Assembly: GCA_945865565.1 (NCBI GenBank)
Contig: CAMBEK010000003.1
Span: 62,001-126,000 of the forward strand
DNA from: Pseudobacteriovorax antillogorgiicola
GTDB lineage: Bacteria > Bdellovibrionota_B > Oligoflexia > Oligoflexales > RGVZ01
Direction: 5' to 3'
DNA: 64,000 nucleotides
This document shows positions 2,996-9,836 of this stretch, piece after piece. Both the position numbers and the translations under genes were made by a program. The notes beneath the pieces were generated by a model. It ran no database searches. It was not told where the DNA came from and saw only the letters and a program-made list of their open reading frames with translations. Position 1 is the first letter of the stretch. Every line of letters starts with the position of its first letter.

Positions 2996-3721
2996 ATGAA
3001 GCTTTTCAAAAAATCAGTCGGTGCATTTACGTCGCTTTGCCTCGCGCTTATTTTTGCGCTGGGCATCGCCCCCTGCGTCAACGCACAATCGCTAGATATT
3101 GTCCCAGGATCTTACAAGCCTAAAAACAATTCACGACCAATCTCAGTGCTTCAAAACAGGTTCTTTTTGAAGTCACTCCGCCCTGAAGTGGGCTTCATGA
3201 CTGGAACAATCCTTAACGAATCCTACACCAGCACAGTTGCAACCGGATTGCGATTGGGCATGTTTATGGGAGAGTGGGCAGGCATTGAAATGCAGTGGTT
3301 GACCACCTCTGTAAGGGACTCCGCCGATCGCAAAGCCCTGAACAATTTGAAATATCGTCCACTTGATGGGGATGCCACGTCGTCCAGTACCATTGTGAGT
3401 CCCGATCCAGATGTAAACGCCGTTCACGGGATGCGTGATCTCGCAGCGGTCGCAGCCCCCTTCTACGGAAAGCTCAACTTGTTCGACAAGATGATCGTCT
3501 ATACCGATGTCTATTTGACTGCTGGATTGTCCAAAGTGGAAACGGACCAGGGCGAGAAGACCGCGATTCTTCTTGGAGCCGGTCAACGCCTTTACCTTTA
3601 TGATTCCTTCTCCGTCCGATTCGACTTTCGAAACCGCATGTTTAACGAGACACGGGCTGAGGCAAACCACCGCAGGAACAGTTGGGCCGTCGACGTCGGC
3701 GCCAGCTACCTGTTTCTCTAG
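2996..3721 (+). CDS. Outer-membrane beta-barrel domain protein (possible Glt-type barrel)
   Basis: A 241-residue secreted protein with a signal peptide (about residues 1-31, cleavage after VNA), then alternating beta-strand sequence ending SYLFL. The segment PFYGKLNLFDKMIVYTDVYL followed by a glycine-rich strand and RFDFRNRMFNE resembles the outer-membrane barrel domain common in Myxococcales and Bdellovibrio, often found next to TPR gliding-motility genes. AGAGG precedes the ATG. It is the first gene of a five-gene operon with three TPR proteins; the next start is 15 bases after its stop. A structural or transport role in the outer membrane is likely; membership of a Glt-like complex is inferred from context. 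Confidence 0.65.
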   Translation: MKLFKKSVGAFTSLCLALIFALGIAPCVNAQSLDIVPGSYKPKNNSRPISVLQNRFFLKSLRPEVGFMTGTILNESYTSTVATGLRLGMFMGEWAGIEMQWLTTSVRDSADRKALNNLKYRPLDGDATSSSTIVSPDPDVNAVHGMRDLAAVAAPFYGKLNLFDKMIVYTDVYLTAGLSKVETDQGEKTAILLGAGQRLYLYDSFSVRFDFRNRMFNETRAEANHRRNSWAVDVGASYLFL

Positions 3722-3736
3722 GAGACCAATAGCACC

Positions 3737-5173
3737 ATGCGTTACTTGATGAAAAAGACATTAACCCTCAACCTTTCGGTCCGATGGATCGCGTTGACGG
3801 CTGCTGTTCTTTTTCTTCCAATCGCAGGTGCTGCCGAAACTGAACCAACCCAAGGCTGGTCAGACTTGGCCAGAAAATCGCGGGATGCCGGATTCAGTAT
3901 CCTGCCGATTCTGGCCATCAGCAAAGCACTTGAAACCGACACGCTTTCTGCGACCGAGAAAAACCGCCTTGTCCGGCTGGCAACGCGACTCTCAGCGCAT
4001 TCAGGCACAGGTATCGCCGCCATTGCATTGTCGCAAAAAATCACAAACGAGGACCAGATCGCAGAGTGGCAATGGTTTTCTGGACTCGCCGACCTAGAAA
4101 AAGGAGATGCGAAAGCCGCAGCTGAGCACTTCAGAATGGTCCGCAAAACCAGTCGAAACTTTTCCCGGGCCCGCTATCAACTTGCGCTGATGGCGTACAA
4201 TGAAAAACGAAATGCCGAGGCAGAGGCACGATTCAAAGAAATTTTGGAAGCCAAGCCAGCACCTGACAACGACCTGCAGGATCTGATTAGACTTGCACTA
4301 GGAAGAATCTGGTATGAACAAAAGAAATTCCAGTCAGCAGCCGCAGCCTACAGAACCGTATCTCGCAGTGGACCACAATTCAAGACTGCACTCTTTGAGC
4401 AGTCTTGGGCTCTATTTATGGCGGGATTTCCAAATCACGCCCTGGGTGCAATCCACGGAATCGAAAGCCCATTTTTCAAGGATAGTTTCAATCCTGAGGC
4501 AACCCTCTTGCGTTCTATCATCCTTTATTGGATGTGTTCATACTCTGAGAGCGACCGCGCACTTCAGGAATTTATTGCCCGACACGCCGACCCCATCGAC
4601 AGGCTGGACAATTTCCTTGCTCGCCAGCAACTGACTCCGGATGCGGCTTGGGAACTATTCGAGAATATGATTGCAGGGGTAAGTGGCGAATCGCTGGGGA
4701 TCCCGCGCCCCGTCCTTTTAACCGCAGCGGCTTCTGACCGGATGATTCCCCTTCGCACTGCTCTGGCTCAGGCCACACAAGAAATCCAGAAAATCGAACA
4801 GGGAAAATTTTCCATGGGTTCGGATGCGAAAGATCAGGCTGCCAAGGCATTGCTACGAGAACACTTGACTCAACTACGCACCTCCACCGGAAAGAAATTT
4901 GTCATAGCGCTGGAGGAAATGAGATCGCAGTACGAGCAACTTCGTGCACAGGCTGATTTCCTCTACGTGGAACTTCTCACGAGCGAAAAAGACAAGCTTC
5001 TGGGAAAAGAACACCTTGCGTCAAACAAGTTCTCGGCAAAACAAGCGAACGGAAAAAGGCCTGCTGGCTGGGGTAAAAGCCAACTGGCTTGGGCACCAAA
5101 CACGAAACAAGAGTATTGGTGGGATGAGGTTGGGTTTTATATCGATCCGGCAAAGGCAGCTTGCGTAAAGTAA
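3737..5173 (+). CDS. Secreted TPR protein, GltC/GltE-like candidate
   Basis: A 478-residue exported protein: signal peptide to about residue 33 (ending AGAAE), then helical TPR-like repeats, for example GDAKAAAEHFRMV, NEKRNAEAEARFKEIL and QKKFQSAAAAYRTV. The stretch around FEQSWALFMAGFPNHALGAI followed by FFKDSFNPEATLLRSIIL is a conserved style of Myxococcales/Bdellovibrio gliding-associated TPR proteins as I recall them. The second half is coiled and charged. The tail is Trp/Tyr-rich (EYWWDEVGFY). AGGAG overlaps the previous stop codon region and serves the ATG at 3737; an in-frame ATG at 3749 is an alternative. Likely periplasmic scaffold; exact Glt homology untested. Confidence 0.6.
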   Translation: MRYLMKKTLTLNLSVRWIALTAAVLFLPIAGAAETEPTQGWSDLARKSRDAGFSILPILAISKALETDTLSATEKNRLVRLATRLSAHSGTGIAAIALSQKITNEDQIAEWQWFSGLADLEKGDAKAAAEHFRMVRKTSRNFSRARYQLALMAYNEKRNAEAEARFKEILEAKPAPDNDLQDLIRLALGRIWYEQKKFQSAAAAYRTVSRSGPQFKTALFEQSWALFMAGFPNHALGAIHGIESPFFKDSFNPEATLLRSIILYWMCSYSESDRALQEFIARHADPIDRLDNFLARQQLTPDAAWELFENMIAGVSGESLGIPRPVLLTAAASDRMIPLRTALAQATQEIQKIEQGKFSMGSDAKDQAAKALLREHLTQLRTSTGKKFVIALEEMRSQYEQLRAQADFLYVELLTSEKDKLLGKEHLASNKFSAKQANGKRPAGWGKSQLAWAPNTKQEYWWDEVGFYIDPAKAACVK

Positions 5174-5213
5174 ATTGCGTTGATGACATTGCTTTGAATT
5201 AGAGGAAAAGCAC

Positions 5214-8200
5214 ATGGATAGCAAAAAACTGTTTTCTCAGTTCTCCCTGCTGGCAGCAGTGGCCACCCTCATCGCTGCTCCTGGGGTGGATGCCGCAAAA
5301 GGCTCTTCCAGTCCGCTGGGCATGCGTGCGCCGCGGAGCAGCAATCTAATGATCCAAAGCGCCGCCGCAGCCGGAAAGAATAAATCCGGCAAGGGAAATT
5401 CCAGCCTGGCACCAAACATGGAAGACTATGCTGACTATTTCAGCAATGATCGTGAAACGTCCTCACGCGTCGACCAGAGGAAGGCCGACGAAGTCAGGCT
5501 TAAAACGATTGCATCAATAAAAAAGCTGCTAGCCGACAGGAAAGACAAGTCTGCAAGAAATTTTGAGCTGATCCTGCGTCTTGGCGAACTCTATGTAGAA
5601 CGCCACGACTACATCCGCGACCTTGAAGCCGATGCGTATGCAAAACTATATTCGGAATGGCAGGCGAAAAACGCAGATAAGCGTGGCAGCGAGCCGAATC
5701 TGACTTACAAGCTGGCCAACGCCGAACTCTCCAAGGCAGCGCTGGCATTCCGCCGTCTCGTGTCAGAATACCCTCGCCACCCGCGCACGGATATGGCCCT
5801 ATTTGCGTTGGCAAAAACCCTGGCGCGACTTGGGGATGACAATGCCGAATCCTATTTTGCACAACTCGTGAAAACATTCCCCAAGTCAACATTGATACCA
5901 GACGCCCAACTGGCCCGTGGGGAGATCTTTTTTGAGAAGCATCAGATGGCTAAAGCCATGCAATCCTACAAGGCGTGCATGCTATACAAAGACCACCCAG
6001 CCTATCCCTACGCGGTTTATAAACTCGGGTGGGCTTACTACAATTCGGATTTCGCGAAGCCAGAAGACGCCCAGGAAAACTACCGCAAATCCATCACAGC
6101 CTTTAAACTCGTCGTAAAACTCTCTGATAGCACAGTTCGCAAGGGAAATTTAAACCTGCGCAAGGAAGCAATCAAGGATCTCGTTCTTGTATGGGCAGAG
6201 ACTGAAGATGTTGAGGGTGCCTGGAAATACTTCAGAACCATTGGCGAAGAAAAATCGTTCTATACCATGCTTGAACGACTTGGCGGGATCTACTCAGAGC
6301 AAGGCAAGCAACCAAAGGCCATTGAGGTTTATGAACGCCTGGTCCGGGAATCACCTTCGCGTCTGTCAACACCCGATGTGTACGCAAACCTCATCGAGCT
6401 CTACGACATCACCAGCAGAGAGGCAGAGGCTGCAACAACCCTCCGCGGAATGCCGGATCTTTTTGATGGAACCAGTAAATGGGCAAGCGCGAACAGCTCA
6501 AATCCTGTCGCGGTAAAAGCAGCAGACGCCAGGGTCGAACGCTTGCTGCACCGGTGGGGAACCCTCTACCACAACCGGGGACAGAAATCGAAAAACCCTG
6601 CGCTTGTGGCGCTGGCGGGTGGAATCTACGAAGCCTACCTGCAGCATTTTGCGCAATCCGATGCCGCATATGAAATTCGCTTTTATCTGGCCGAGATTCA
6701 ATTTGACGAACAGCGATATGAGTCGGCATCTAAAAACTACTCGCTTGTAGCAAACGCCAGACCAAAAGATGGCAAATTCAAACGCGCCGCTGCATTAAAC
6801 GCAGTTGCGTCGATGAACAAACTTATTGAAGGCAAAAAATTTGAGAAGCTGCCACCGGCGGGGAAAGCAACCAAAGAGTATGACATCCCAAAGGAAAAGC
6901 TCGCGCTAGTCCGTTATATGGATGATTACTCGCGCCTGCTCCCAAATGATGCTGAGGGGTATCCAATGCGCTACAGCGCTGCGCAGGTCTTTTTCGACCA
7001 TGGCCATTACGGCGTTGGACTAAAGAGGTTCGAAAACATCGTCAACACTATCCCAGCCACCACCCAAGGCAAAACCTCGGCAAGAATAATGATCGGTTAT
7101 TATTATGAGCAATCCAAATGGAGCGACGTCATCTCGTGGGCATCCAAAATGACCTCCATCAAGGAACTGCGAGACGACAGTTCGCTGATGACCCTCAGAA
7201 ACACGTTATATGCTCAGGCGATATTCAACCGGGCGAACGCAGCTGAAAAGGCATCCGATTACGCAAATGCATCAGCCGACTTTCTGCTGTTCCAAAAGGA
7301 GTTCCCAAATAATCCAAGCGCCGACAGAGCTTTGTTCAACGCTTCGTTGAATCAACAAAAGTCTTCGAACCTCGAAGATTCAATGGCTACGGCAAAAAAG
7401 ATGATCGACACTTATCCCCAATCGAATCTGCGCGCTGACGCAATGGCCAATCTCGGGGACAGCTATGAGGCGCTGGCCGATCTCGGGTCTGCTGCAAAGT
7501 GGTACACCGAACTTGGCACTCGCTTTCCATCTGACAAGCGCAGTGCAACGGCGCTTTATAATGCAGCGGTTTTACAGAAGGCTACTGGTCACCTGGATTT
7601 AGCCGAGGGGCTTCTTGCTGAAATCCGCCGCAGCCACGGCACCCATGAAATTGGCCGGGAAGCCACCATGGAACTCGCTTTGGTTCAAGAGCGCCGTGAA
7701 AAATATATGGAGGCAGCAACCACTCTGGCAGCATTGGCCGGCATGAAAGGGATTGATGCCGATACGCAGATTCTAGCCATGACAAGGAAGGCCAAGATTC
7801 TTGCCTTGAATCTTAAGGATCCAGCGGGACGTCATGAATTAGACCGCATCCGGATGAGTCTTTCGAGAAAAGACGCGCCGCCTGCAGCTCTAGCAAGACA
7901 GGAACTTGCATCATGCTTATTTGAACAAGTTGAAAATGGCTTTCACCAATTTATGAACGCCCGGATCCAAGGCGGCAGGGGTGGCGACGCCACCATTCAA
8001 GCTAAACAAGGTATTCTTGAAAGAACCGCATCAGGATATGAGTCTGTGATCGCACTGGGCAGCCCGGAGCACACGGTTGCGTCCCTTTATCGCCTTGGGG
8101 AGATGCATGAGGATTTCGCGGAGAAGTTGTTTAATGTCCAGCCAGGAAGTGAAGTAAGCCAGGAGAAGGCGATGGCATTCCGCTCGCGGATGGACAAACT

Positions 8201-8420
8201 TGCTTTTCCCCTGCGTGAAGAATCCGGTAAATTTTTTGAAGTCGCGCAGAAACGCGCCAATGAGGTCGAGACGTTTAGCGAATGGACTGGCCGGGTGGAA
8301 CGTAAAATTGCTGATCTGGCGGGGAAAAAACCTGCAGCGGACGCCATGATGGTGCTTGCGCCGCAGTATGTGAGCCAAAAATTTGCGCTTAACAAGTCGA
8401 CTCGTGAGTTGATTGACTAG
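5214..8420 (+). CDS. Large periplasmic TPR protein, GltD/AgmU-like candidate
   Basis: A 1068-residue exported protein with an N-terminal signal (cleavage about residue 27, VDAAKG), a Ser/Gly/Lys-rich linker, then many TPR-type helical pairs through to the end. Clear repeat segments include HPRTDMALFALAKTLARLGD, NFELILRLGELYVERHDYI, SAAKWYTELGTRFPSDKRSA and NPSADRALFNASLNQQKSSN. No enzyme motif was seen. Very large multi-TPR periplasmic proteins beside an outer-membrane barrel and a TPR lipoprotein recall GltD of the Myxococcus gliding machine. AGAGG at about 5201-5205 precedes the ATG. A general cell-envelope scaffold of the YbgF/BamD type on a larger scale is the alternative reading. Confidence 0.62.
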   Translation: MDSKKLFSQFSLLAAVATLIAAPGVDAAKGSSSPLGMRAPRSSNLMIQSAAAAGKNKSGKGNSSLAPNMEDYADYFSNDRETSSRVDQRKADEVRLKTIASIKKLLADRKDKSARNFELILRLGELYVERHDYIRDLEADAYAKLYSEWQAKNADKRGSEPNLTYKLANAELSKAALAFRRLVSEYPRHPRTDMALFALAKTLARLGDDNAESYFAQLVKTFPKSTLIPDAQLARGEIFFEKHQMAKAMQSYKACMLYKDHPAYPYAVYKLGWAYYNSDFAKPEDAQENYRKSITAFKLVVKLSDSTVRKGNLNLRKEAIKDLVLVWAETEDVEGAWKYFRTIGEEKSFYTMLERLGGIYSEQGKQPKAIEVYERLVRESPSRLSTPDVYANLIELYDITSREAEAATTLRGMPDLFDGTSKWASANSSNPVAVKAADARVERLLHRWGTLYHNRGQKSKNPALVALAGGIYEAYLQHFAQSDAAYEIRFYLAEIQFDEQRYESASKNYSLVANARPKDGKFKRAAALNAVASMNKLIEGKKFEKLPPAGKATKEYDIPKEKLALVRYMDDYSRLLPNDAEGYPMRYSAAQVFFDHGHYGVGLKRFENIVNTIPATTQGKTSARIMIGYYYEQSKWSDVISWASKMTSIKELRDDSSLMTLRNTLYAQAIFNRANAAEKASDYANASADFLLFQKEFPNNPSADRALFNASLNQQKSSNLEDSMATAKKMIDTYPQSNLRADAMANLGDSYEALADLGSAAKWYTELGTRFPSDKRSATALYNAAVLQKATGHLDLAEGLLAEIRRSHGTHEIGREATMELALVQERREKYMEAATTLAALAGMKGIDADTQILAMTRKAKILALNLKDPAGRHELDRIRMSLSRKDAPPAALARQELASCLFEQVENGFHQFMNARIQGGRGGDATIQAKQGILERTASGYESVIALGSPEHTVASLYRLGEMHEDFAEKLFNVQPGSEVSQEKAMAFRSRMDKLAFPLREESGKFFEVAQKRANEVETFSEWTGRVERKIADLAGKKPAADAMMVLAPQYVSQKFALNKSTRELID

Positions 8421-8433
8421 GGAGATGACTAAT

Positions 8434-9522
8434 ATGAAAATTTACAAAATCGGCCCCGCAATTTTTGGATTTGTCCTGATGACTGCAGGGTGCAAAACGC
8501 TCTCTCCGGTTGCTTCCCTGGATCAAAACAGGAACGAAGTTGTTTTCGTTACGACGTCTGACGAACGGACGGCTGCCCCGGAACTTGCCGAGGACCGTGG
8601 CATCAAGGATGCCCGAGCATCCCTGTTGACTCGAATCAAGGCCAACCCGTTGGACGGCGCAGCCCTCATTGACCTTGCGCGTCTGGCACTCGTTGCTGAA
8701 AAGACGGCAGAGGCAGAGGGCTGGGCGAAAAGGGCGCTTCGCGCAGACACAAAAAATGTGGAGGCAAAAAAGATTCTGGCGATGGTTGCCCTGCAGCGGC
8801 GTCAACTTGACCTCGCCGAGGTTTTTTTGAACTCTTTGGATGGCTCACAAAGCAAAGATTCAACTGTCCTCAACTTGATCGGCCAACTGCGCCTTGCAAG
8901 GGGTCGAAATCTACTTGCTGCCGAGGCCTTCAAGAGGGCGCTTGAGCTGAATCCAAATGACATCGCGACGCGAATGAACCTTGGAGTTCTCTACCTCAAG
9001 CACCGGCAATACAATCAAGCCGGCATACAGTTTGAACGTGTCCTTTCTGTCATGCCGAAACACGACGATGCTGCCGTCCACATGGCGATGGTCGAAGCCC
9101 ACAGAGGAAAAACCAAGGTCGCCATCGACGCCCTGACTGCCGCCCTTTCACGCAATCCAAACAGCGAACTGGTGCTGTTTAATCTTGCATCTGTCGAGCG
9201 CGAGGCCGGCCAACTGGAGAATGCCAAAACCCATCTCAAGAAGTTTCTGACCGTGAGCAAAACTAAAAATGATGAGACGGAACAGGTAGCTTCGATCCTT
9301 GAGGATATTTTTCGGCAGCAATCCGCGGAGGGTAACAGGGTTAGTGACACTGAAATCATGACCCTTGCTGCAAAGATAAAGGCCGCCCCATCGGCAACGA
9401 AACCAGAAATCAACGAGCTGCCTCCGGAGCTGGTCCAGGCGCAGAAGCCTGTTGAGCCCGCAAGGGGCCCAGTTGATCCTGAGTCCAACAACGTGAGTGA
9501 GCTCGAAAGGGCGCTGCAATGA
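8434..9522 (+). CDS. TPR lipoprotein, GltE/AglT-like candidate
   Basis: A 362-residue lipoprotein. The lipobox MTAGC follows a short hydrophobic signal, so the mature protein starts at the Cys near residue 20. TPR units follow: NPLDGAALIDLARLALVAEK, GRNLLAAEAFKRALELNPND, YNQAGIQFERVLSVMPKHDD, HRGKTKVAIDALTAALSRNP. The C-terminal 60 residues are Pro/Ala/Glu-rich and probably disordered. I chose ATG 8434 because GGGAG at 8420-8424 is nine bases away; the upstream TTG/ATG choices at 8413 and 8425 have no spaced ribosome site. Its stop overlaps the next ATG as ATGA. Likely anchored to a membrane face as an adaptor in the same complex as the neighbouring TPR proteins. Confidence 0.65.
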   Translation: MKIYKIGPAIFGFVLMTAGCKTLSPVASLDQNRNEVVFVTTSDERTAAPELAEDRGIKDARASLLTRIKANPLDGAALIDLARLALVAEKTAEAEGWAKRALRADTKNVEAKKILAMVALQRRQLDLAEVFLNSLDGSQSKDSTVLNLIGQLRLARGRNLLAAEAFKRALELNPNDIATRMNLGVLYLKHRQYNQAGIQFERVLSVMPKHDDAAVHMAMVEAHRGKTKVAIDALTAALSRNPNSELVLFNLASVEREAGQLENAKTHLKKFLTVSKTKNDETEQVASILEDIFRQQSAEGNRVSDTEIMTLAAKIKAAPSATKPEINELPPELVQAQKPVEPARGPVDPESNNVSELERALQ

Positions 9523-9836
9523 GATCACGACTGGCCCTCGCCGGAATATTGACTCTTCTGTATGGTGGGGCAGCAAATGCTGCATCTACACCTGCACCTG
9601 CAAGTTCAACGGCACAGAAGGCAGGTGATGTCGCAGATCCCGGCTACATGGTCCGGTCATCCACCAAAATTGATTTTAATGAAGCGGCCATCGAAGGCCG
9701 CATGAAAGCCCCAGATGGATTTTTTTTGCAGGGCAGAAAGTCTCAGGAAATGCAAAACCTGCTAAAACTCAGGTCTAATTTTCGCAGAGAACTCTCAGGT
9801 TCAGCCTCGGCAGCAGAAAATCCACCTCAGGACTGA
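9519..9836 (+). CDS. Small secreted protein of the TPR operon, unknown function
   Basis: A 105-residue protein with a clear signal peptide (cleavage after ANA, about residue 22). The mature part has low complexity at first (STPAPASST), then a segment KIDFNEAAIEGRMKAPDGFFLQGRKSQEMQNLLKLRSNFRREL cut here into its visible features: a DFNE box, a GFFLQGR turn and a basic helix. The FNEAAIEGRMKAPDG pattern resembles the short tails seen in proteins of TonB/energy-transducer operons of Myxococcales, but I cannot name a family. It starts by ATGA overlap with the TPR lipoprotein and overlaps the convergent lipocalin gene by ten bases at the 3' end. Confidence 0.6.
   Translation: MRSRLALAGILTLLYGGAANAASTPAPASSTAQKAGDVADPGYMVRSSTKIDFNEAAIEGRMKAPDGFFLQGRKSQEMQNLLKLRSNFRRELSGSASAAENPPQD

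Follow-up and report, generated by a model that had tools for sequence, protein, structure and literature searches.

In Myxococcus xanthus, the AglRQS motor contacts the Glt complex via GltG and, via NfsG, also powers the paralogous Nfs complex (PMC3858216). The outer-membrane barrels of this organism bind GltC and belong to the motile complex (PMC4488436). A bacterium encoding AglRQS together with GltA-G has been proposed as a potential glider (PMC3169522), and a 2026 review called the gliding machinery of the Bdellovibrionota unidentified (PMC13104615).

The locus described here was found in a 64,000-nucleotide stretch of DNA (the window, by which we mean the whole stretch analyzed) from the 90% complete metagenome genome of an uncultured member of the Oligoflexales. 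It represents a known kind of system, a Glt set, in a variant without motor and GltG at its own locus. As in the M. xanthus Agl-Glt system (PMC3169522, PMC4488436), homologs of a barrel, GltC, GltD, GltE, and GltF are present, and AglRQS and GltG are encoded elsewhere in the genome. In contrast to Agl-Glt, the window locus has one barrel instead of two, no GltG, GltH, GltI, GltJ, or GltK gene adjoins it, and most of its profile matches fall under the NCBI equivalog cutoffs. Another parallel is the Nfs complex (NfsA-H; PMC3858216), which acts in M. xanthus sporulation: it, too, is paralogous to Glt and lacks an AglRQS motor of its own, but unlike the window set it includes a GltG homolog, NfsG, that binds AglR. 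Several Glt-type sets per genome also occur in a related lineage, as the expanded core complexes of Bdellovibrio bacteriovorus (e.g., Bd0828-0838; PMC3169522); by the published description, however, AglRQS and GltA-G are found together in Bd0828-0838, whereas GltF of the host lies apart from the motor and GltG.

A five-gene Glt-type operon

The operon occupies positions 2996 to 9836 of the window and consists of five tightly spaced open reading frames on the + strand, with products of 241, 478, 1068, about 362, and 105 amino acids, all five of which begin with a signal-peptide-like N terminus. The intergenic distances are 15, 40, about 13, and -4 bases; the third assumes that gltE starts at ATG 8434, which is preceded by GGGAG 9 bases upstream (ATG 8425 being an alternative), and the last reflects an overlap of the 5' end of gltF with gltE by 4 bases. 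A preliminary description had read these genes as one operon with short gaps or overlaps, and the coordinates and sizes it gave proved accurate. The operon lies between an upstream Hsp33-like gene and a convergent lipocalin-like gene on its downstream side (both named by sequence reading). A promoter and terminator scan was uninformative, as its counts were close to the shuffled expectation.

The first gene (2996 to 3721, +) encodes a member of the myxobacterial GltA/B family of outer-membrane barrels. Its product, which carries a signal peptide, scored 84 bits against TIGR04565 (OMP_myx_plus) in an NCBIfam profile search, above the cutoff of 60, and its AlphaFold model (pLDDT 85) has eight beta-strands, with OmpA, Ail, OmpW, and OprF as the best Foldseek matches. 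The motif PFYGK, quoted in the preliminary description, is present in this barrel, and its P, Y, G, and K residues are invariant among the window-type barrels, the motor-type barrels considered below, and those of myxobacteria.

The 478-residue secreted TPR protein (3737 to 5173, +), in which the second quoted motif, WALFMAGFPNHALGAI, was also found, matched the GltC model NF033756 with an E value of 1.3e-35 and 123 bits, under the NCBIfam equivalog cutoff of 450. On the strength of this match and of the gene tree, it is a GltC homolog, though not a proven equivalog. For the 1068-residue secreted protein (5214 to 8420, +), TPR models were the only profile matches, NCBIfam having no GltD model. 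It is homologous to, and syntenic with, the protein in the GltD position of three Myxococcales loci (L132 to L134), which identifies it, by homology and synteny, as a GltD (AgmU) homolog. The fourth product, a putative lipoprotein of about 362 residues (8434 to 9522, +), is GltE-like: it scored 42 bits against the GltE model NF033758, which generic TPR models outscored, its lipobox Cys is conserved across orthologs, and its position in the operon agrees with GltE.

The small secreted protein of 105 residues (9519 to 9836, +) matched no Pfam model and reached an E value of 4.3e-12 and 45.9 bits with the CglF model NF033764, under the NCBIfam cutoff of 90. By this match and the conserved motif IDFxxAxIDGKMKAPxGFxLQ...LRxxF, it is a GltF/CglF homolog. 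From its size and position, we take CglF to be the GltF (MXAN_4868) of PMC3169522. A structure model of the window protein was of low confidence (pTM 0.23) and showed one long helix. The profile searches against the Glt families thus returned OMP_myx_plus, GltC, and CglF/GltF, and the gene order matches that of a myxobacterial glt cluster, both of which bear out the resemblance to the Glt gliding machine first suggested for this operon.

Orthologs of the 1068-residue GltD-like protein were found across the order at 37 to 89% identity, and most of the order retains the set as an operon distinct from the motor cluster. The order barrel-gltC-gltD-gltE-gltF, without a nearby motor gene, is repeated in more than 20 loci of related genomes, which named records place in the Oligoflexales and, for the more distant group, in the Silvanigrellales; since the same order recurs so often, the arrangement is not due to chance. 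In two genomes (G012 and G026), no more of the set than gltD and gltE was seen at the locus. In the Myxococcales contig L132, two barrel genes are followed by gltC, gltD, gltE, gltF, and then gltJ; this matches the window, and the order is thus shared with myxobacteria. Neither a motor gene nor GltG was found at the window locus or at any ortholog locus. A gene whose matches to matrixin-like metallopeptidases are weak flanks the operon in 13 relatives (e.g., L067:5023-5742) and is absent beside the window operon.

The motor-bearing set and other Glt-like loci of the host

The preliminary description had stated that the window contains no motor gene, which is correct, and had suggested a reduced or relocated version of the machine or a separate envelope scaffold. 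A search of the remaining genome revealed matching AglRQS and GltG genes. The idea of a reduced or relocated version needs refining: the locus is a conserved second set, in this lineage never with a motor or GltG of its own, and it coexists with a paralogous set that is complete and carries the motor.

At the left end of host contig C6, aglR, aglQ, and aglS, which encode an ExbB and two ExbD proteins with a membrane Asp, are followed by a barrel gene and a truncated gltC. The right end of contig C26 carries the second half of gltD, then gltE and gltG. Because these genes form one intact run in relatives (aglR-Q-S-barrel-gltC-D-E-G), the two contig ends are most simply explained as a single cluster split by an assembly gap. 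The membrane Asp is retained in both AglQ and AglS of the host; in M. xanthus, AglQ D28 is required for proton flow (PMC3858216). The GltG encoded on C26 has an FHA domain and an AgmX/PglI tail, and matched NF033760 at 9.6e-35, under the equivalog cutoff of 650. GltF is present in the window set and absent from the motor set. When the 90% complete host genome was searched for tails of the GltJ type (NF033768), only this GltG-like protein, a tail protein encoded on contig C1, and a weak TonB-like match were obtained.

Further motor and Glt-like genes occur elsewhere in the host genome. A separate motor cluster on contig C1 (119012-124321; L022:4013-9322) encodes an FHA/GAF/HD-GYP protein, an ExbB-like protein, two ExbD-like proteins in which no ExbD domain could be recognized, and a further protein whose C-terminal tail is of the GltG type. 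A third Glt-like set, with neither barrel nor motor, is located on contig C20 (L035:3194-10717) and was also seen at L105; its products are proteins of 275 and 792 residues and TPR proteins of 1032 and 415 residues, the last of which scored 77 bits against GltE. A third OMP_myx_plus barrel gene stands alone on contig C3 (264025; L017:8855-9706), adjoining an acetyltransferase-like gene. On contig C5 (128542; L016:10447-10791), a solitary GltF/CglF-like gene adjoins an outer-membrane-protein-like gene, and its product might supply the GltF that is missing from the motor set.

History and co-occurrence of the two sets

Window-type and motor-type sequences fell apart in each of the trees built for GltD, GltC, and the barrel; these trees were quick, unrooted, and supported by SH-aLRT values only. 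Both types were found in the Oligoflexales as well as in the Silvanigrellales group, and the duplication therefore predates the split of these lineages. By branch length in the unrooted tree, myxobacterial GltD is closer to the window type, and GltC has changed faster in the window set than in the motor set. We also considered whether the window and motor barrels correspond one to one to the two myxobacterial barrels; the barrel tree does not support such a pairing, as the myxobacterial barrels cluster together.

For co-occurrence, we compared 46 genomes that were at least 85% complete, all from the class to which the window belongs. The window set was present in 29 of these, every one of which also had motor-type GltD (in the host, the motor set was seen directly). 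In nine genomes, two of them of the same genus, the motor set stood alone, and eight lacked both. That all 29 would fall within the 38 motor-set genomes has a chance of about 1e-4 if genomes are treated as independent, which they are not. Full-length GltG occurred once per genome, at the motor set; it was not found in G013, which is a fragmentary assembly.

Probable coupling of the window set to the motor

We consider it most likely, with a probability of roughly 60%, that the five genes specify an outer-envelope module of the Glt type which is linked, for some or all of the time, to the one AglRQS motor and one GltG of the second locus and carries force to the cell surface. By analogy with M. 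xanthus, the GltA/B-type barrel would reside in the outer membrane with the periplasmic TPR protein GltC bound to it, GltD would form a large periplasmic TPR rod, GltE would be anchored as a TPR lipoprotein in the inner leaflet of the outer membrane, and GltF would act as a small secreted factor of the module. Having neither a motor nor an inner-membrane adaptor of its own, the module would dock on AglRQS/GltG from the second locus, and force from the AglRQS proton motor would be passed through it to the cell surface, where the cargo may be a gliding adhesion or a surface polymer that is moved. Both docking and force transmission are suggested by the constant association of the window set with the motor set (29/29) and by the one motor-linked GltG per genome, as well as by the precedent of M. 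xanthus, where one AglRQS powers both Glt and the paralogous Nfs (PMC3858216). The chief difficulty for sharing is that the window set lacks a GltG homolog, which in this precedent every cargo set keeps, and that the motor locus is complete with its own barrel, GltC, GltD, and GltE and does not need the window set. Moreover, the co-occurrence counts are tied to phylogeny, and no MglA-like GTPase was recognized in the host (PF00025, searched without a positive control). Tentatively, the window set may be an exchangeable surface head on the shared AglRQS/GltG motor, kept since before the Oligoflexales/Silvanigrellales split, and would move a surface polymer or an adhesin in some role distinct from gliding of the Myxococcus type.

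M. xanthus requires two paralogous barrels that stabilize each other (PMC4488436), and each set here has one. The two sets might then form one larger machine, in which the window and motor-locus barrels are paired like GltA and GltB and the window GltF serves the motor set, consistent with GltF being encoded in the window set only and with the window set never occurring alone. Such a joint machine is nonetheless unlikely given the nine genomes with a motor set but no window set (including the two of the same genus), the second, solitary GltF-like gene of the host, and a barrel tree that joins the myxobacterial pair together and not set by set. Still more doubtful is a static envelope scaffold, uncoupled from proton motors and serving in outer-membrane tethering or polymer organization: the absence of motor and GltG from every window-type locus and the faster change of window GltC would suit it, but the window set never occurs without the motor set, and homologous Glt sets are motor driven (PMC3858216). 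Very improbable is powering by the C1 cluster, which does offer a motor and a GltG-type tail without periplasmic TPR or barrel genes, but whose ExbD-like proteins failed to match any ExbD model and show no Asp in their first membrane segment. A specific partnership was rejected because the cluster is present in genomes that lack the window set (G002, G003, G022, G034, and G037), and because no full-length match to its FHA protein was obtained in those Silvanigrellales that have the set.

Our literature search, judged from titles and the openings of abstracts, returned no report of gliding in the Oligoflexales or Silvanigrellales. In the PF00025 search for MglA-like GTPases, run without an MglA as positive control, a protein of about the size of IF-2 was the sole match in the host. 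Candidates in relatives were discarded on reading their sequences, the strongest match reading as a SAR1-like GTPase and two others as Rab/Roc-like. A small GTPase gene, SAR1-like by sequence reading, lies downstream of a transporter-like gene at L138:1441-2064 in the metagenome genome G026 of a relative, where contamination or transfer is possible.

The host genome encodes homologs of AglRQS and GltA-G, though with one barrel per set, and by the proposal cited above (PMC3169522) the host would be a potential glider. A lineage counted among the Bdellovibrionota by the NCBI taxonomy keeps two Glt sets, one with motor and GltG and one with GltF and neither of these. As genomes of a single genus differ in the presence of the second set, its contribution could be assessed through comparison of such genomes and through deletion mutants.
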